The notes under the pieces are model-generated. The model saw only the letters and a program-made list of their open reading frames with translations. It made no database searches and was not told the DNA's origin. Position numbers and translations under genes: made by a program. A stretch of DNA of 64,000 nt from Caenorhabditis elegans (taxonomy: Eukaryota > Nematoda > Chromadorea > Rhabditida > Rhabditidae): contig NC_003280.10 in assembly GCF_000002985.6 (NCBI RefSeq), positions 5,018,501 to 5,082,500 of the forward strand, given 5' to 3'. Below, piece after piece: positions 13,492-59,289 of this stretch. Each line of letters begins with the position of its first letter. The first letter of the stretch is position 1.

Positions 13492-15528
13492 TCAGATAAC
13501 TTTGGCAGTAGCTTCTTTCTGTTCGGTAAGAGGACGTGGTGGAATTTCGATGACATCGAAGTATATGTGCTGAAATTATATATAATTAGTTGATACCTAG
13601 CTAACTAGCAAATACCTTAGCCCTAGAATGTGTCAAAAACTTTTGATTGGCAGTTACAGTAGTCGTTTTGGTAACTTCCGCGCATGAGAAGACTCTCTGA
13701 AAATATATGAATTAAATATTGAATAAAGTTTTTTCAAAACCTTTGTAATTGACGTTATTCCTTTGATATTTCGTAATTTGACAACTCTTCCAATTTCATC
13801 TGATGGTTGATCCTGAACACGCTCAATCGTCTTGCTTAGCTCTTCGAATCGCTTCTTCTCCGTAGGCCCGCCGACATTTTTTACGATTTCTGCTACTCTT
13901 CTATAGGCAAGCTCACACATAATCAGATGATGTCCTGAACATTGATAATATTATTTTTGACAAAAATTGCAATCCAAAACCTTTCAATTTTTCCAGCACT
14001 TCAGCCTTCGCAGGTTTCAATCGTTCACATTCCACATGCTTATTGATCATTTCCTCTTTGAATTGATAATTCACACCACCAGGTTCACACATGTTCGAAA
14101 CTAACAACATCACAGCCGAAATATCAAGATTTAAGCGTGGCAGTGTTGACTCTGACTGCGATTGTGAGGAGGGTAGCCTGCAATAGAGTTATTGTAGTAC
14201 GGGAAAAGAGAGAGAGAGAGATGGGGAGACGCAAGAACGTGTTTGCCTTTCAACGGGACAGAAAACATGGCCGCCATAGCTCAGTCGGTTAGAGCGTGGG
14301 TCTAATAAGCCCAAGGTCGCAGGTTCGACCCCTGCTGGCGGCAAAATGTTTTGCTTCTTATTTCATCAAAACCTATTTAAACTTACGTTGGAATAGAAGC
14401 AGCATCTTCATCAACTTCATCCCAGTCAGAATCTTCCTCTTCTCCAAGCCGTTCAATTAATTCTTCGTTCCATTTTCCACGTAAACTAGGATCTGATTTA
14501 TCGACGTGCTCTCCAATAACAACAATTCCATGACGAATGAGTTTTTGGGCCATCTCTGCTAGAACTCCATTTCTGAAGTAAATTCGTATTTGTGGTCGAT
14601 TGAAACGGCGTGATACGAAAAGATGTTGCTTTATTTGTGCAATAACGTCGCCATTTCGTTTTCCGTCTCGATATTCGATGAGAACGGTTTTGGCGGGGCG
14701 ATTCACAAGTTTTATCTGAAAGAAAAATTAAAATTTTATTTGAAAATATATGAAAAGAGTTTAATAATAACCCAAATGCGGATTTCTTTGCGATTTTTGT
14801 TCAAAAAATACGGTGTCTGGTCTCGACGCGATAAATATTTGAGAAATGCTAAAGCGTATGCGCCTTTAAAAGAGTACTGTAATTTCAAACTTTTCAGTTT
14901 CTCGTAAAAAATATTGTTTTTAATTCAGGAACTGAAACAAAACAATTAAAATACACAATTTTAATACAAATTGTGAGAAAAACTATTACAAATCGATAAA
15001 AATTTCACAGTGACGAAAATTCGTTTTATTAAAAATTACAGTACTCTTTGAAAGCGCACACCTGTTTGTTTTATACGAAAAACTGTCGTGTCGAGACCGG
15101 GCACCAAATTTTAGGTGAAAAATGGCAAAAACTCGGATTTGTATAATACTAACCCAAACATTCGGTTCTTTCATCACAATATCTACAGTAACCGATACAT
15201 TATCCCGTTTGAACGTTTTCAGTACGGCCGTCGCATTTTCCATTTCCTCAACTTCATCGATTATTGATTTGTAGAATGCGTAGTTACATGTGACCAAATG
15301 AGTTTCTAGAGCTTTTCGTGTAGCCTGAAAATTCTTAATTTAAAAATCATAAAATCTATAAAATACATTTTGAAGTAGTTCAATTTCCTTGTTAAGCATT
15401 CGTTCCATTCGTTGCAAATTCTCCAATTTTTGGAATTTGGCGCCCGTCAACTTGGCGACTGCTTCTTGAACTTCTTTGATTTTTTCGATTCGCTGCCTCT
15501 CCAAATCATCTTCGTCGACTCCATGCAT
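13492..15528 (-). CDS. C7orf25-like (DUF1308, UPF0415) protein
   Basis: 403 aa in seven exons: 15528-15367, 15324-15154, 14715-14387, 14177-13981, 13934-13741, 13696-13616, 13569-13492; all phases agree. It matches human C7orf25 (about 421 aa) along its length: an N-terminal helical region (LERQRIEKIKEVQEAV), a central segment with acidic stretch EEEDSDWDEVDEDAA, the DUF1308-type LNLDISAVMLLVS and FKEEMINKHVECER blocks, the GGPTEKKRFEELSK/DQPSDEIGR block, and a C-terminal ALTES-like PRPLTEQKEA. The biochemical role of the family is not established to my knowledge. Intron 14178-14386 contains a tRNA-Ile gene on the opposite strand and intron 14716-15153 a foldback repeat. Fourth gene of the candidate operon. 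Confidence 0.85.
14270..14343 (+). tRNA. tRNA-Ile (AAU anticodon, read as IAU)
   Basis: A 74-base cloverleaf including discriminator A. Acceptor stem GCCGCCA/TGGCGGC, D arm GCTC/GAGC, anticodon stem TGGGT/GCCCA with loop CTAATAA (anticodon AAT), and T arm GCAGG/CCTGC with TTCGACC loop. No intron. A TTTT terminator follows at about 14349. It lies antisense within an intron of the C7orf25-like gene and is identical base for base to the copy at 38947-39020. Confidence 0.97.
14771..15145. repeat. Foldback element in C7orf25-like intron
   Basis: The left arm (about 14771-14891) contains ATACGGTGTCTGGTCTCGACGCG and GCGCCTTTAAAAGAGTACTGTAATTTC. The right arm (15034-15145) has the inverse: AATTACAGTACTCTTTGAAAGCGCACACC, GTCGTGTCGAGACCGGGCACC and AAAAACTCGGATTTG. 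The arms flank about 140 bases of AT-rich loop. Confidence 0.8.
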
Positions 15529-37115: not shown

Positions 37116-37121
37116 GTAATC

Positions 37122-37678
37122 ATGGTCCCAAAGCCACACGCCAAGTCGGCCAAGAAGGCTCTTCGCAAGAAGAAGGTGCACCTCAAGTTCAACGTTGAGT
37201 GCAAGAACCCAGTTGAGGATGGAATTCTCAGAATCGAAGATCTTGTAAGTTGTAGGCTTTTTAAAATTAATCAGCCTCATCAAGTCGATAGAGTTCCCGT
37301 CTCTATCGCAAGACCAGGCTTAGGGTATATATTGGTCCCTAGTAAGTCCCGGTTGTTTTCAGGAAGCCTTCTTGAACGAGAAGATCAAGGTCAATGGAAA
37401 GACCGGACATTTGGCCGCTAACAACGTCAAGGTCGAGGTCGCCAAGTCCAAGGTCTCAGTCGTCTCCGAGGTCCCATTCTCGAAGAGGTAGCATTTTATT
37501 CAATCAAACTTGTTCTCATATTTTTATATTCAGATACCTCAAGTACCTTACCAAGAAGTACCTCAAGAGAAACTCCCTCCGTGATTGGCTCCGTGTGGTC
37601 GCTGTCAACAAGAACACCTACGAGGTCAGATACTTCCACATCAACGACGGAGAGGACGCAGGAAGCGACCACGAGTAA
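37122..37678 (+). CDS. rpl-22: 60S ribosomal protein L22 (eL22)
   Basis: 130 aa in three exons: 37122-37244, 37363-37487, 37534-37678. The start [20 protein letters not shown] is the basic N-terminal extension, followed by the conserved eL22 core ([60 protein letters not shown]) and the acidic tail GEDAGSDHE. It is a component of the large cytosolic ribosomal subunit. Codon use is strongly biased (AAG, CTC, GAG, GTC), as in highly expressed worm genes and unlike its neighbours. A TTTCAG acceptor 6 bases before the ATG fits SL1 trans-splicing. The 118-base first intron is unusually structured; see findings. Confidence 0.98.
37286..37308 (+). promoter_or_regulatory. Hairpin in rpl-22 intron 1, candidate L22-binding element
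   Basis: CGATAGAG (37286-37293) pairs perfectly with CTCTATCG (37301-37308) around the 7-base loop TTCCCGT. The loop-closing pair is G-C and the last loop base is U in RNA, as in the L22 ligand consensus I recall from in vitro selection. An outer AGCCT/AGGCT pairing (37273-37277 with 37316-37320) could extend the structure. A second small hairpin (TAGGG/CCCTA, 37321-37341) and an internal GTAAGT (37342-37347) follow. Confidence 0.5.
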
Positions 37679-37727: not shown

Positions 37728-39613
37728 TTAGAAAAACAGCAATATGATTATTATCGAGTACCAGTAGGGAATGAGTGGTGAAGATGATTCGAAATCGGAA
37801 TTTTGATGCAAAAATTTTCTTATCCAGGTTGTAACTCTGTTATCCTCCCCTGGTGGTATTTCGCAGAACTCGTGGATGGGTCGGTCTGGCCGGGATTCCT
37901 TTGCTTTGTTTTCGAATGTTCGCATGTCGCAGAACTGTTCTCCTCGGCATCCCTTGATTCTCGACGTGACAGTTTCGAAAGTTGAATGAACATTTTTCTG
38001 ATACAGCACCTGCAATTATGCGATGAGATGGCATTATGAATCGAAACATACTCTGAAATAGGGCTTCTCGTCCGTTTTATTATGGAACAGTTCGATCGCG
38101 ATATCTGAAGCATAGTCAGGCCACTCGCCATATTTCTCAGGTCCTGCAACAATATCCTCAATTCCTAACACAGCGAGGAGAGCGAATACTGTGTGATCAT
38201 GCTGAAATTAAAATGATTCTATTATACAAGTACAGAGGAGTTGTGATTACTGTAGAGTAAGCGTAGTATTTCAGATTTTTGTGATAATTGTCACATTTGG
38301 CTTCATTTTTAGCACAAGTTGCTTTCGTTCTCATTCTTGCAGATATATCGTTTATCATTGGGCCACCCCGTGTTTTTAAGATTTCTCTTCGTACATTGAT
38401 GCCTTGAACAATTGGCGGATCATAAAGTCCCGTAACGAATGCTTTTGAAGGTCTTTCTAAATCGTCAAGATTCTCAAAGAATTCATCAGAATACCATGTT
38501 TGATTTAGTACAGATTCTGGAAAGTGAATTTTCTGAAAATTAAATTTTAAAAGGTTTTAAAATTAAGTAGACCAAGTACTTGAATCATAACAGCATCATG
38601 AACTTGCCACATGTTATCCCATGTAAATGTTTGATTAAATAGTTCAGACAATAATAAAGTTGTGTTCACATACTGGAATTAAATTTTTAAATTATAACTG
38701 GTTTCACTTCTCATACCTTTTCAGATTGTACATAACTCTGAAACTGTTCTCCCTCGTGTGCTATTTTCAGAAGTTCATCTCTGCGCCTACAAATACAAAA
38801 TGCACTAGCAACACAATCTTGACCAGCCGGCCCAGCACTATGAATTGGTACAGGCATAAAACCACGTGGCCATCCTTCTATATCAGGATAGTCGATACCT
38901 GGAATGCCAAAACTACAAAAGTCATTGTAAATTAAAAAAAAAATTTTGCCGCCAGCAGGGGTCGAACCTGCGACCTTGGGCTTATTAGACCCACGCTCTA
39001 ACCGACTGAGCTATGGCGGCCGACAAGTATTCGGGGAACTTGTGCGTACACAAAAAACCGACCTGGTCGGGATACGGAACTGGAGAACATGCCCAGCATG
39101 TTCGAGATAGCAGAATTGATTGTACGGTTTACATCAGTGGAGCGTATGAAAATCTGTTGCATATATTGATGACCATATAGGAAATTTCAGTGTTTAGTGT
39201 CACAAACCTGTTGAGAATCATAGAAATTTTGCAAAAAACCCGTTTTTACATATTTATCACGAAGCTTCTGACCTAAAATGAACTGTTGTTCCATGCCTTC
39301 CTGAAAAAGAGGATTACTGTAGTTTTAAAAATGTGCAATTTCTACCGGAGTCAACTGTCCATATCCACCACCTCCCTTATTCCATTTCGAGGGATCTACC
39401 GGATCATTATTCAGATGACCGTCTTGGCTTCGGTCACCGTGTCTCCAAACCTGCCAAGTTCAAATATTATTTTACGGTACTCGGTATATTCTCGATATAA
39501 TATCTTACTGTATGCACAAAAATAAGCTGAAGCTCTTCTGGAACTGTCTCATTTATCTCAATTGTGAAAATGTTGCCAACAAGGAAGAGTGCAATCAAGA
39601 CATAATATGACAT
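37728..39613 (-). CDS. Histidine acid phosphatase, membrane-anchored type
   Basis: 469 aa in nine exons: 39613-39509, 39450-39346, 39300-39208, 39153-39050, 38912-38717, 38672-38580, 38532-38251, 38201-38052, 38009-37728; phases agree. The N-terminal signal peptide MSYYVLIALFLVGNIFTIE leads to the catalytic VWRHGDR motif (RHGDR about residues 38-42, phosphohistidine site). FIRSTDVNRT is the second arginine motif, and the HDHTVFALL motif near residue 327 holds the acid-base His-Asp pair. The C-terminus ends in a hydrophobic segment (YWYSIIIILLFF), suggesting a GPI or membrane anchor. It belongs to the prostatic/lysosomal acid phosphatase family expanded in worms. The 39050 junction uses a GTACGC donor, chosen to keep frame. 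Intron 38913-39049 contains a tRNA-Ile gene in the sense orientation. Confidence 0.88.
38947..39020 (-). tRNA. tRNA-Ile (AAU anticodon, read as IAU), second copy
   Basis: Identical in all 74 bases to the gene at 14270-14343, on the opposite strand: acceptor GCCGCCA/TGGCGGC, anticodon loop CTAATAA. A long T run (T9 after AAAA) follows on the minus strand and can terminate Pol III. It sits in an intron of the histidine acid phosphatase gene in the same orientation as that gene. Confidence 0.97.
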
Positions 39614-43636: not shown

Positions 43637-46600
43637 ATGGCCTCGCAAGACAGCGATGAGGCTTTGCCAGCAAATTATAAAGATTATCCGGATGGATCTC
43701 TCCTTCGCGTTGTATTTCATAATTTTCTGTAAGTTAAACAAGAAAAAATCAATGTTATAACTTTTTTAACTTGAAGAACATACGAACACACCTCATTCCT
43801 TCCAACTGCAAGTCTGAATATGATTTTGGGACATAATGGAAGTGGAAAAAGTTCGATTATTTGTGGAATTTGTCTGGCTTGCGGCGGAAGTCCGAAATCA
43901 TTGGGAAGATCAGAGAGAATCGTGGAATATATTAGACATGGATGCACAGAAGGATACGTTGAAATTGCAATGTAGGTGTTGACTGTGTCAATGTTCGGAA
44001 GAACATATTAAAATGTATAATTTCAGTGCTGACAAACAAAAAGGTCCACAAGTTGTTCGCTTAACGATTCGAGTGGGAGAGCAGCCGAAATATCGTTTAA
44101 ATGATAGTGCAACAACACAAAGTGAAATCGCCGATCTAAGAAAGCATTACAATATTCAAGTAAGCTTCATGTTTCAAAACCTTCAATACTAATATTTCTG
44201 CAGATTGACAATCCGTGTGCATTTCTTGCTCAAGACAAAGTCAAGAGTTTTTCCGAGCAATCGTCTATTGAATTGTTAAGAAATACAGAAAAAGCTGCGT
44301 CGGCTGATCTCGATCAACAACACATAGATCTCATGAAACAGCGAGAAGACTCGACTTCAATTGAGGATAAATGTACAACATCTGAAAATGCAATTAAACG
44401 ATTAGAAGATGAAATTGGTAAAATTATGCCACTCGTTGAGAACTATCGAAAGAAGTTAGCTCTCCAGTCAAAACTCCGTTTGCTCGAAAAGAAAATGAAA
44501 ATTATGGAATTTGAAAAGTTCGATCGGGAGTATAAAGCTGAGTTGCAAAACATGGATGGAGCAATGATAGAGTATCGAGAAGTCGAGAAAAGTATTGCAG
44601 AATGCGAAAAGCACAGAAAAAATTTGGAAGATCGGATTAAAAAAGACAGAAGTCAAATCAGTCAGATGGTAAAAAATTCTGCCGATTTTTGAGAAATTAT
44701 AATTGACATTTCAGCAACGTTCTTGTAACGAAATCCTTGCAAAAGTCCAAGAGAAAGGAGATAAAAAGTTGATGGAAGATATGATGCAACGTGCTAAAGC
44801 AAAATTGGAATCGGCGAAAAAAGCAGCAGATCAACATGAAAAAGATGTCGAAAAAGCTCGAAAAATGATTGATCAAGCTCGAGCGAGACTTCAGGAAGCC
44901 GTTGATACTCTTAATGGATACGAAGAGTTTCAATCCGAAATGAAGAGTTTAGAGCAAAAGTATTCGACTGCTGAACGTGACAGTCGTCAAGAAGAAGATG
45001 CAATTCAAAAGAAATCATATGAAATGCGGCAGCTGGAAAATAGTAAATAACTTATCATCAAATATCTTTTACAAAAAAACTTTTTTCCAGAAAAACGAGA
45101 CGAAGAACAGAATTCTCAGTTAAATCGACAAGATCGATATCGCGTTCTTCAAAATTTCAGCAGTGATGCCTCGAAAGCCTATCGCTGGTATCAACAGAAT
45201 CGAAGTCAATTCAAAGGAGACGTATATATGCCCATTATGGATGTAAGGAAGAGATAAGAAAAATCGAAAAAAATGTGTAGAAAATTAAGCTAAAAAGAAC
45301 CACGAAAAAAGATTTTTCAATTTTCCTAAAAACAAAAAAAACCGACACACTTTTTATGAAGTCAAATATTTTTTTGAACTGAAAATAATATTTATTTTTG
45401 TTGAAAAATTAGAAAAATGCACTCAGAAAGTTGCCGTTAAACTATTTGGTAATTTTCAGGCACTATTTGAAGAATTTTTTCGAACGTTTCAACATTAATT
45501 AATATTACTTTCAGATTGGAAGAACCTGTTCCTACAATGTTGAATTTAAAAATTAAAATTATCAAACTAAAATACATATGCGATTTTGTTCGTTTCTCCG
45601 AAAGATTTGACGCACATCGCTTGGAAGAAACGTATTAAAATTCTTAAATTATTTTTTTTATTTCAGATGTGCGGCAAATCTCAAAATTTGCCGAGCTCGG
45701 CATATTCGGCAAATCTCTTTTTTCAATATTTGCCGAGCACGGCAAACTCGGCAAATTTGCCGAGCTCGTCAAATTCGGCAAATTCGGCAATTTTGCCGTG
45801 CTTAACAAACTCGGAAAAATTTGATATTTTTAATGTTTTTTGGAGCACTAAAACTACTGAATTCTTAACACACATCTGGTTTCTGAATAAGTTCCGCGTA
45901 GTGTGTCTGTTTAAGCATCAAAATAGCTCAATTTTGTGTCATTTTACTAAATTTTTGGCTAAAAAATCAATAGTTTTAGTCAAAATTGTACTGTCAAATT
46001 TTTGACGTGTGCGGCAAATTTCGAAATTTGCCGAGCTCGGCAAATTCGGCAAATCTACTTTTTTGAAATTTGCCGTGCTCGGCAAATTCAGCAAATTTGC
46101 CGAGCGCGGCAAACGGCAAATTCGGCAAATTTGCCGCACACCCCTGTTTCAGATGGTTCTCAAAACTCCAGAAGCGGCAAAAGCTCTTGAGAACAGTGTT
46201 GGTGTTCGTGATCGTACTATGTTCGTTTGCTGTTATAAGGAAGATGAACTTTTGATCAACGGAAAACAACATTCATGGCGTATTAACACTTCAGTGGTCC
46301 CTGCTGAAAAAATCTATTCTGAAGATATCGATGCTCAGCTTCCATCTGAACTTTCTCGTCTTGGATTTAAATATCTCGTTTCTAATTGCTTTGATGCTCC
46401 TGCCCCACTCAAACAATTCTTATGCAATGTCAGCGGTTTGAATAGAATTCCATTCGGAGGATCTGATGTTGAGAAAAAGATCGCTGAAGTATCGCAAGCG
46501 ATCGAACAAACGAGATATTCAGTTTTTTTGACAGCCAATATTAGAGTTAGTTCACAATTCCTATTTCCGTGTAAATTAATAATCAATTTTTCAGTGTCAA

Positions 46601-54808: not shown

Positions 54809-57800
54809 GTGTATTTTGAAAGGTCATCACAATAGAAAAAAGGAAGACTACAGAAAAACTAATGAGAGACCCCGAAATACTGGCTGTATTTTGAAAGGTC
54901 ATCTCAATAGAAAAAATGGAAGAAGTGGAAGACTACAGAAAAACTATTGAGAGACCCCGAAATACTGGCTGTATTTTGAAAGGTCATCTCAATAGAAAAG
55001 ATGGAAGACTACAGAAAAACTATTGTGAGACCCCGAAATACTGGCTGTATTTTGAAAGGTCATCTCAATAGAAAAGATGGAAGACTACAGAAAAACTATT
55101 GAGAGACCCCGAAATACTGGGTGTATTTTGAAAGGTCATCTCAATAGAAAAAATGGAAGAAGTGGAAGACTACAGAAAAACTATTGAGAGACCCCGAAAT
55201 ACTGGCTGTATTTTGAAAGGTCATCTCAATAGAAAAGATGGAAGAATACAGAAAAACATTGAGAGACCCCGAAATACTGGCTGTATTTTGAAAGGTCATC
55301 TCAATAGAAAAGAGGAAGACTACAGAAAAACTATTGAGAGACCCCGAAATACTGGCTGTATTTTGAAAGGTCATCTCAATAGAAAAAATGGAAGACTACA
55401 GAAAATCTATTGAGAGACCCCGAAATACTGGATGTATTTTGAAAGGTTATCTCAATAGAAAAGATGGAAGACTACAGAAAAACTATTGAGAGACCCCGAA
55501 ATACTGGCTGTATTTTGAAAGGTCATCTCAATAGAAAAGATGGAAGACTACAGAAAAACTATTGAGAGACCCCGAAATACTGGCTGTATTTTGAAAGGTC
55601 ATCTCAATAGAAAAGATGGAAGACTACAGAAAAACTATTGAGAGACCCCGAAATACTGGCTGTATTTTGAAAGGTCATCTCAATAGAAAAGATGGAAGAC
55701 TACAGAAAAACTATTGAGAGACCCCGAAATACTGGCTGTATTTTGAAAGGTCATCTCAATAGAAAAGATGGAAGACTACAGAAAAACTATTGAGAGACCC
55801 CGAAATACTGGCTGTATTTTGAAAGGTCATCTCAATAGAAAAAATGGAAGAAGTGGAAGACTACAGAAAAACTATTGTGAGACCCCGAAATACTGACTGT
55901 ATTTTGAAAGGTTATCTCAATAGAAAAGATGGAAGACTACAGAAAAACTATTGAGAGACCCCGAAATACTGGCTGTATTTTGAAAGGTCATCTCAATAGA
56001 AAAGATGGAAGAAGTGGAAGACTACAGAAAAACTATTGAGAGACCCCGAAATACTGGCTGTATTTTGAAAGGTCATCTCAATAGAAAAGATGGAAGACTA
56101 CAGAAAAACTATTGAGAGACCCCGAAATACTGGCTGTATTTTGAAAGGTCATCTCAATAGAAAAGATGGAAGACTACAGAATAACTATTAAGAGACCCCG
56201 AAATACTGGCTGTATTTTGAAAGGTCATCTCAATAGAAAAGATGGAAGACTACAGAAAAACTATTGAGAGACCCCGAAATACTGGCTGTATTTTGAAAGG
56301 TCATCTCAATAGAAAAGATGGAAGACTACAGAAAAACTATTGAGAGACCCCGAAATACTGGCTGTATTTTGAAAGGTTATCTCAATAGAAAAGATGGAAG
56401 ACTACAGAAAAACTATTGAGAGACCCCGAAATACTGGCTGTATTTTGAAAGGTCATCTCAATAGAAAAGATGGAAGACTACAGAAAAACTATTAAGAGAC
56501 CCCGAAATACTGGCTGTATTTTGAAAGGTTATCTCAATAGAAAAGATGGAAGACTACAGAAAAACTATTGAGAGACCCCGAAATACTGGCTGTATTTTGA
56601 AAGGTCATCTCAATAGAAAAAATGGAAGAAGTGGAAGACTACAGAAAAACTATTGAGAGGCCCCGAAATACTGGCTGTATTTTGAAAGGTTATCTCAATA
56701 GAAAAGATGGAAGACTACAGAAAAACTATTGTGAGACCCCGAAATACTGGCTGTATTTTGAAAGGTCATCTCAATAGAAAAGATGGAAGACTACAGAAAA
56801 ACTATTGAGAGACCCCGAAATACTGGCTGTATTTTGAAAGGTCATCTCAATAGAAAAGATGGAAGAATACAGAAAAACATTGAGAGACCCCGAAATACTG
56901 GCTGTATTTTGAAAGGTCATCTCAATAGAAAAGAGGAAGACTACAGAAAAACATTGAGAGACCCCGAAATACTGGCTGTATTTTGAAAGGTCATCTCAAT
57001 AGAAAAGAGGAAGACTACAGAAAAACTATTGAGAGACCCCGAAATACTGGCTGTATTTTGAAAGGTCATCTCAATAGAAAAAATGGAAGAAGTGGAAGAC
57101 TACAGAAAAACTATTGAGAGGCCCCGAAATACTGGCTGTATTTTGAAAGGTTATCTCAATAGAAAAGATGGAAGACTACAGAAAAACTATTGTGAGACCC
57201 CGAAATACTGGCTGTATTTTGAAAGGTCATCTCAATAGAAAAGATGGAAGACTACAGAAAAACTATTGAGAGACCCCGAAATACTGGCTGTATTTTGAAA
57301 GGTCATCTCAATAGAAAAGATGGAAGACTACAGAAAAACTATTGAGAGACCCCGAAATACTGGCTGTATTTTGAAAGGTCATCTCAATAGAAAAGATGGA
57401 AGACTACAGAAAAACTATTGAGAGACCCCGAAATACTGGCTGTATTTTGAAAGGTCATCTCAATAGAAAAGATGGAAGACTACAGAAAAACTATTGAGAG
57501 ACCCCGAAATACTGGCTGTATTTTGAAAGGTAATCTCAATAGAAAAGATGGAAGACTACAGAAAAACTATTGAGAGACCCCGAAATACTGGATGTATTTT
57601 GAAAGGTTATCTCAATAGAAAAGATGGAAGACTACAGAAAAACTATTGAGAGACCCCGAAATACTGGCTGTATTTTGAAAGGTCATCTCAATAGAAAAGA
57701 TGGAAGACTACAGAAAAACTATTGTGAGACCCCGAAATACTGGCTGTATTTTGAAAGGTCATCTCAATAGAAAAGATGGAAGACTACAGAAAAACTATTA

Positions 57801-58920
57801 AGAGACCCCGAAATACTGGCTGTATTTTGAAAGGTCATCTCAATAGAAAAGATGGAAGACTACAGAAAAACTATTGAGAGACCCCGAAATACTGGCTGTA
57901 TTTTGAAAGGTTATCTCAATAGCAAAGATGGTAGACTACAGAAAAACTATTGTGAGACCCCGAAATACTGACTGTATTTTGAAAGGTTATCTCAATAGAA
58001 AAGATGGAAGACTACAGAAAAACTATTGAGAGACCCCGAAATACTGGCTGTATTTTGAAAGGTCATCTCAATAGAAAAGATGGAAGACTACAGAAAAACT
58101 ATTGTGAGACCCCGAAATACTGGCTGTATTTTGAAAGGTCATCTCAATAGAAAAGATGGAAGAAGTGGAAGACTACAGAAAAACTATTGAGAGACCCCGA
58201 AATACTGGCTGTATTTTGAAAGGTCATCTCAATAGAAAAGATGGAAGAAGTGGAAGACTACAGAAAAAACTATTGAGAGACCCCGAAATACTGGCTGTAT
58301 TTTGAAAGGTCATCTCAATAGAAAAGAGGAAGACTACAGAGAAACTGTTGAGAGACCCCGAAATACTGGCTGTATTTTGAAAGGTCATCTCAATAGAAAA
58401 GATGGAATACTACAGAAAAACTATTGAGAGACCCCGAAATACTGGCTGTATTTTGAAAGGTCATCTCAATAGAAAAGATGGAAGACTACAGAAAAACTAT
58501 TGAGAGACCCCGAAATACTGGCTGTATTTTGAAAGGTCATCTCAATAGAAAAAATGGAACAAGTGGAAGACTACAGAAAAACTATTGTGAGACCCCGAAA
58601 TACTGGCTGTATTTTGAAAGGTCATCTCAATAGAAAAGATGGAAGACTACAGAAAAACTATTGAGAGACCCCGAAATACTGGCTGTATTTTGAAAGGTCA
58701 TCTCAATAGAAAAGATGGAAGACTACAGAAAAACTATTGAGAGACCCCGAAATACTGGCTGTATTTTGAAAGGTCATCTCAATAGAAAAGATGGAAGACT
58801 ACAGAAAAACTATTGTGAGACCCCGAAATACTGACTGTATTTTGAAAGGTCATCTCAATAGAAAAGATGGAAGAAGTGGAAGACTACAGAAAAACTATTG
58901 AGAGACCCCGAAATACTGGC
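54809..58920. repeat. 76-bp tandem minisatellite, about 54 copies
   Basis: The unit begins CTGTATTTTGAAAGGTCATC and passes through GATGGAAGACTACAG to GAGACCCCGAAATACTGG; start-to-start distances such as 55501 to 55577 are exactly 76. Most units are near identical. Variants include 85-bp units with a 9-base AAGTGGAAG duplication, 75- and 72-bp deletion forms, and point variants (TTGTGAGACC, TTAAGAGACC, GGTTATCTC, GACTGTATT). Since 76 is not a multiple of 3, no frame stays open across the array, so it is not coding. Confidence 0.98.
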
Positions 58921-59289
58921 TGGTGATCCTCATGAATCGAAGACTTTTGTGGGGAGACCGAGGACCTCCGCCTCTGATTTAGGATCCTCCCAGAGTTTTG
59001 AGGGCGTGAATGGGTGTTCGAGCATCCCAGCAGATGAGCGACGCTTCCCGAGGTGTCAGACCCCGATATACTGTATGTATTTGGAAATGTCCTCAGGGGA
59101 CAAACTGGAGTAACGATCGAGATGTACCCAGACACATAATGATATAGTTGTAAATAAAACGAAAAAAATGCAAATAAATTTCAAAGAAATTATGAAATAT
59201 AGAAGAATATTTCACAACAGCGAGTACTTCGAAACTACAGTACTCTTATTAAAGAGTACTGTAGTCTCTGTGACCGCTTCTTTCATTTA
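58921..59289. other. Unique module and degenerate repeat bordering the minisatellite
   Basis: After the last full unit comes about 135 bases of GC-rich unique sequence (58921-59057). Then a diverged half unit CAGACCCCGATATACTGTATGTATTTGGAAATGTCCTC at about 59059 closes the array. 59233-59266 is a perfect short foldback (CTACAGTACTCTT/AAGAGTACTGTAG). No gene seen. Confidence 0.6.
59233..59266. repeat. Short perfect foldback
   Basis: ACTACAGTACTCTT, a loop of about four bases, then AAGAGTACTGTAGT. It is the terminal motif of the GCGCC/TACAGTA family fused to its own inverse without the internal modules. Confidence 0.8.

Follow-up and report, generated by a model that had tools for sequence, protein, structure and literature searches.

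The rpl-22 Locus

The window, i.e., the whole stretch of 64,000 nt of Caenorhabditis elegans DNA that was analysed, carries on its plus strand a gene that we take to be rpl-22 (C27A2.2) of strain N2 (Table 1). Its product, RPL-22, has 130 residues and the same sequence as the eL22 chain of PDB 9bh5. In the genome (100,286,401 bases, 7 contigs) rpl-22 is the sole eL22 gene found by protein search, with 3 matches all situated at the rpl-22 locus (C2:5055622-5056175), and by a search with the Pfam L22e model, whose 2 matches are both located there as well. RPL-22 contains KKYLKR, compared to KKYLKK in the other aligned eL22 chains (8q7z, 7o7y, and 7oyc), and an RNA-binding mutant of L22 was made in KKYLKK (PMC3750023). 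From this alignment, worm RPL-22 should retain the same RNA-binding surface. According to PMC7615767, rpl-22 undergoes trans-splicing to SL1.

Nematode relatives were not found in the searched genome contigs and viral contigs. The contig L005, assigned to a Desulfosporosinus MAG, encodes a eukaryotic-type L22 (45% identity) at positions 246-602, which is probably explained by eukaryotic contamination of the bin, and this sequence was not used. Two tRNA-Ile(AAU) genes are situated on opposite strands of the window (14270-14343 and 38947-39020), the second of which was also detected in the Rfam search and follows rpl-22 at a distance of about 1.3 kb.

Table 1. Features of rpl-22 and of its intron 1 (window positions).
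Feature	Position	Strand	Basis and remarks
5' leader	37116..37121	+	between presumed SL1 acceptor (CAG ending 37115) and start codon; exact site inferred
Coding exon 1	37122..37244	+	translation; matches PDB 9bh5 eL22
Intron 1	37245..37362	+	118 nt; open in exon-1 frame; single copy in the genome by DNA search
Alternative 5' hairpin AGGCU/AGCCU (37254-37258 with 37273-37277)	37254..37277	+	pair probability 0.66-0.68
Possible clamp over 3' splice site (37254-37262 with 37361-37369)	37254..37369	+	minimum-energy fold; 5 inner pairs 0.20-0.24
Extended main hairpin, outer stem AGCCU/AGGCU (37273-37277 with 37316-37320)	37273..37320	+	pair probability 0.26-0.32
8-bp hairpin, 7-nt loop UUCCCGU; proposed RPL-22 site resembling 26S nt 1766-1788	37286..37308	+	sequence, folding, shuffles, genome pattern search
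Internal GTAAGT, judged a non-working 5' splice site	37342..37347	+	21 nt to acceptor 37362
Coding exon 2	37363..37487	+	retained-intron frame ends at TAA 37419-37421
Intron 2	37488..37533	+	46 nt
Coding exon 3 through normal stop	37534..37678	+	sequence, translation

Reading Frame and Splice Sites of Intron 1

The elements that the sequence-only reading had described in intron 1 were all present at their positions when the sequence was checked, including a second short hairpin, in which TAGGG (37321-37325) can pair with CCCTA (37337-37341). Likewise, its claim that the intron is open in frame and that retention leads to a stop in exon 2 was confirmed; the TAA of the retained frame is located 66 nt upstream of the exon 2/exon 3 junction, the last junction of the gene. 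Judged by sequence, the product of intron-1 retention would be unproductive. An open retained frame was also obtained in 395 of 10000 shuffles of the intron.

Both splice sites of intron 1 appear strong, and its splicing is therefore probably efficient by default. The GTAAGT at 37342 had been proposed as an additional, internal 5' splice site. Due to its distance of only 21 nt to the acceptor at 37362, which is too short for a worm intron, this proposal was rejected and the motif carries no weight. In combination with the intron-2 acceptor at 37533 it would give a shifted frame of 129 codons with a stop beyond the normal one (position by arithmetic); since this stop comes after the normal stop codon, such a product is not a poison isoform.

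An L22-Type Hairpin in Intron 1

The arms of the main hairpin are formed by CGATAGAG (37286-37293) and CTCTATCG (37301-37308), which enclose the loop TTCCCGT (37294-37300). Folded within a 586-nt segment, the stem shows pair probabilities of 0.92-1.00, and the loop is unpaired with a probability of 0.97-1.00. Ligands of L22 were defined by human SELEX as hairpins with a G-C closing pair, a loop of 5-9 nt, and a U as the 3'-most loop base (PMC4838235, PMC3750023), and an alternative form of this rule is given as G(N)7CU (PMC5755908). The intron hairpin is closed by G37293-C37301 and has a 7-nt loop with a final U, and G37293-UUCCCGU-C37301-U37302 agrees with all published forms of the rule, G(N)7CU included. 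Together with the likeness to a hairpin of the same type in 26S rRNA (see below), this agreement supports, at the level of sequence, the earlier reading of the hairpin as L22-type.

Hairpins of this type are rare. With at least 8 Watson-Crick pairs they were obtained in 7 of 20000 dinucleotide shuffles of intron 1, with at least 6 pairs in 148 of 20000, while any hairpin of at least 8 bp (loop 3-9) arose in 86 of 20000. In 528,000 bases of strand sequence, consisting of 20 genome samples and the window, L22-type hairpins with at least 8 pairs occur 14 times, the intron-1 hairpin included, which corresponds to a frequency of about 0.25% per intron-sized stretch.

The intron has the structured fold that autoregulation of a ribosomal protein gene calls for. 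Folded alone it reaches -30.5 kcal/mol (z -3.4; 1 of 200 shuffles equally stable), and a second run with 40 shuffles gave z -3.2. A z of -3.4 or lower was found for 65 of the 1084 118-nt segments of the window; the stability of the whole intron is thus only moderately unusual and taken alone weak evidence. Several of the 12 most structured among the 1084 segments derive from a tandem array at 54926-58922, in which a 76-base unit is repeated about 52 times with 94% matches. Within 45667-46138, the minus-strand segments at 45667 and 46021 show z of -8.1 and -8.8, respectively, and the one at 46021 has z -6.9 when folded as plus strand; these very stable folds suggest inverted repeats.

Likeness to a 26S rRNA Hairpin

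For comparison with rRNA, rDNA was taken from the genome, and 26 candidate hairpins were listed in 26S by matches to the L22 motif (at least 4 pairs, G-U allowed). Among these 26, nt 1766-1788, with the sequence AGCUAGAG-UUUUCUU-CUCUAGUU and, like the intron hairpin, 8 pairs, is the best match to the intron stem (10 of 10 letters). Common to both hairpins is UAGAG-UU....U-CUCUA with a loop length of 7 nt. This likeness is new relative to the sequence-only reading.

Searches of the genome indicate how often such a hairpin is to be expected. The pattern TAGAGTTNNNNTCTCTA has 5 matches (rDNA, intron 1, and three others), compared to 11 for a reversed control; only rDNA and intron 1 reach 8 pairs, the other three having 5 to 7. 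One of these three (G000:C5:11430922-11430938, minus strand, L012; stem of 7 pairs with G-U) could be another target of RPL-22, provided that the mimicry is real. The pattern TAGAGNNNNNNTCTCTA, which covers stem, loop size, and final U, gave 35 matches in the 100-Mb genome versus 36 for its control. These 35 include one in rDNA and one in rpl-22 intron 1, and the loop CGGCAG is common to 13 of them. From the 33 matches without rDNA and intron 1, a chance of 1.7e-5 per 118-nt stretch and strand is estimated, which increases to about 4e-4 when multiplied by the 26 candidate hairpins. Among 63 L22-type hairpins with a 7-nt loop and at least 5 pairs in the 528 kb, only intron 1 matches the 26S core in 14 of 17 positions, the next best reaching 12.

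Plain sequence, in contrast to hairpins, gives no such rarity. Within the 528 kb of strand sequence, 4 stretches, among them intron 1, score 14 of 17. In direct comparisons of the intron with rRNA, another 26S site equals the match to nt 1766-1788 at 17 letters, one 26S and one 18S site tie with it at 20 letters, 26S nt 1955-1977 exceeds it at 23 letters, and an 18S site ties with it at 26 letters. The whole intron aligned with 26S scores no higher than 215 of 1000 shuffles, and a derivation of intron 1 as a piece of 26S was rejected on these grounds. Taken alone, the plain sequence likeness to rRNA is not significant. The case therefore rests on how closely one hairpin resembles the other, and on its occurrence in the gene that encodes RPL-22 itself.

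In the Rfam eukaryotic LSU model, 26S nt 1766-1788 forms a helix, the first of three hairpins in that region. By the usual order of the helices, this is probably helix 57; an initial assignment to helix 59 was dropped due to the first-of-three place in the alignment. With helix 57 rather than helix 59, the link to eL22 is less direct. Neighbourhood of eL22 has been described for helix 59 (PMC11186639, PMC7363849). At the tunnel exit, eL22 shares a single attachment site with eL31 (PMC10118133), and bacterial bL17, which occupies roughly the place of eL31, reaches helix 57 (PMC11354259). In yeast, Rpl22 touches a stem-loop of 25S rRNA whose form seems to agree with the SELEX rule (PMC4838235). 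The passages cited place eL22 near the region and do not name the hairpin of nt 1766-1788, and no statement of contact between eL22 and helix 57 was found in a literature search. Contact of eL22 with this hairpin is putative.

Alternative Folds of Intron 1

The outer AGCCT/AGGCT pairing that had been noticed around the main hairpin can form (37273 with 37316), but in the 586-nt segment the AGGCT at 37254 is the more probable partner of the shared AGCCT. In the same segment, the 3' splice site region (37365-37369) is a further possible partner of 37254-37258, with a probability of 0.20-0.24. The opposite preference was observed for the shorter stretch 37239-37390, for which the extended, clamped structure has the lowest energy (-47.2 kcal/mol), compared to -43.3 kcal/mol for the structure with the 5' hairpin. 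The intron folded alone adopts the 5' hairpin fold. A clamp helix of at least 9 pairs occurs in 114 of 5000 shuffles.

Based on these folds, intron 1 might be seen as a two-state switch that is run by rRNA mimicry. AGCCU 37273-37277 would pair either with AGGCU 37254, so that the 3' splice site stays accessible, or with AGGCU 37316 in the extended hairpin; RPL-22 would lock the latter, by which 37254-37262 would be freed to pair with AGGAAGCCU (37361-37369) and to cover the 3' splice site. The gated clamp is possible in the predicted folds but speculative, and we consider the two-state switch as a whole unlikely. If true, a ribosomal protein gene of an animal would contain a splice-site clamp that is gated by a protein.

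Proposed Feedback Control of rpl-22 and Its Rivals

The likeliest explanation, in which we have moderate confidence and which represents a testable prediction, is feedback control of rpl-22 splicing through rRNA mimicry. Intron 1 would carry a decoy of the rRNA hairpin, and free RPL-22 that is not used by new 60S subunits would bind 37286-37308 much as it binds rRNA. Binding would slow the splicing of intron 1, and the retained mRNA would be read in the shifted frame, stop at 37419 in exon 2, and be removed by nonsense-mediated decay, so that RPL-22 lowers its own output. The binding by RPL-22, the splicing block, and the decay of the intron-1 isoform are proposed steps of this model. The interpretation given by the sequence-only reading is plausible and partly supported, and it is somewhat strengthened because the intron hairpin resembles the 26S hairpin.

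The main rival is chance: an ordinary, constitutively spliced intron would happen to contain a strong hairpin with an L22-like loop, and its likeness to 26S would be coincidental. We regard this as a tentative but serious possibility, to which the chance level of the plain sequence likeness, the equal or lower z-scores of 65 among the 1084 window segments, and three of the other same-stem genome sites all contribute, the loops of these three sites being nearer to 26S (4 of 6 free loop letters as in 26S, versus 3 of 6 in intron 1). It is opposed by the fact that hairpin-to-hairpin likeness combined with the L22 rule is rare and falls in the very gene of the protein concerned.

Two further rivals leave L22 aside. 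The hairpin could aid splicing by shortening the effective intron or by bringing the splice sites together, in agreement with the minimum-energy fold of 37239-37390, which pairs the 5' and 3' intron ends. This is improbable, however, as an intron of 118 nt requires no splicing help, the fold covers the 3' splice site (37361-37369) and should hinder its use, and an end-to-end helix is frequent enough in the shuffles mentioned above. Very improbable is another kind of RNA element, i.e., a remnant inverted repeat, a small RNA precursor, or the site of another RNA-binding protein: the strong short stem would suit it, but intron 1 is single copy, GATAGAGNNNNNNTCTCTATC was found once in the genome, and the Rfam search of the intron gave no match at gathering score, with the best weak match (E 1.3) on the opposite strand. 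Accordingly, a snoRNA, a miRNA, or another Rfam family was rejected for lack of any match at gathering score, and a mobile repeat due to the single copy.

Retained rpl-22 mRNA in the Literature

The earlier statement that no such regulation had been described for worm rpl-22 holds in part. An intron-retained rpl-22 mRNA is in print: it was chosen from the dietary-restriction RNA-seq of PMC6600014 and measured in PMC10755965, where retention is reported to be up under food dilution, not on fasting, and the discussion says that it is decreased there. The passages on this retention leave the intron unspecified, and it may be intron 2. Control of rpl-22 splicing by L22, by contrast, was not found described among the papers listed in a literature search, judged on titles and abstract openings, and the literature search found no L22-binding experiment on worm rpl-22 RNA and no NMD-mutant data for rpl-22. 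By name, rpl-22 is absent from the main text of PMC6600014 and from that of the worm NMD-substrate paper PMC5765348. If the feedback explanation is true, it might bear on the diet-linked change of the reported retained-intron mRNA.

Comparison with Known Systems

Other ribosomal protein genes of the worm also yield NMD-targeted isoforms, for which the available parts of the two papers describe no L22-type or rRNA-like hairpin (PMC10755965, PMC5765348). The Drosophila RpL22 paper concerns DNA binding by the histone-like N-terminus (PMC8872304).

In vertebrates, Rpl22 acts on Rpl22l1 mRNA in a similar way: it attaches to a hairpin in which a U follows the G-C neck, and it lowers expression (PMC3750023). 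There, the hairpin is situated in a coding exon of the paralog and is linked to mRNA stability, whereas the worm hairpin is intronic and part of the gene's own RNA. The exon-1 stretch of rpl-22 at the position of the zebrafish Rpl22l1 hairpin, as located by eye, was rejected as a counterpart; in its predicted fold, a stem of 8 bp encloses a loop of 3 nt, which is not L22-type. Human RPL22 binds intronic stem-loops and alters the splicing of MDM4 exon 6 (reviewed in PMC12110047), which is similar to the proposed worm case except that RPL22 acts there on a different gene and causes an exon to be skipped.

Closest to the proposed worm case are RPL22B of S. cerevisiae and RPL22 of K. lactis, in which L22 represses splicing of its own gene via a structured intron (PMC4838235, PMC5755908). 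Unlike the worm hairpin, the yeast RPL22B element is larger (intron nt 153-225), the letters of its apical loop are irrelevant, and according to both papers it does not resemble the rRNA structure, while the worm hairpin resembles both rRNA and the SELEX motif. Furthermore, in contrast to yeast RPL22B, no paralog was found in the worm. Self-control by L22 is thus known in yeast, and control of one paralog by another in vertebrates; the RNA elements involved seem to have nothing in common. If the feedback explanation is true, an intron imitating a 26S hairpin in a genome in which no paralog was found would suggest a simple origin for the off-ribosome RNA targets of L22, and worm rpl-22 would offer a clean genetic test of feedback control.
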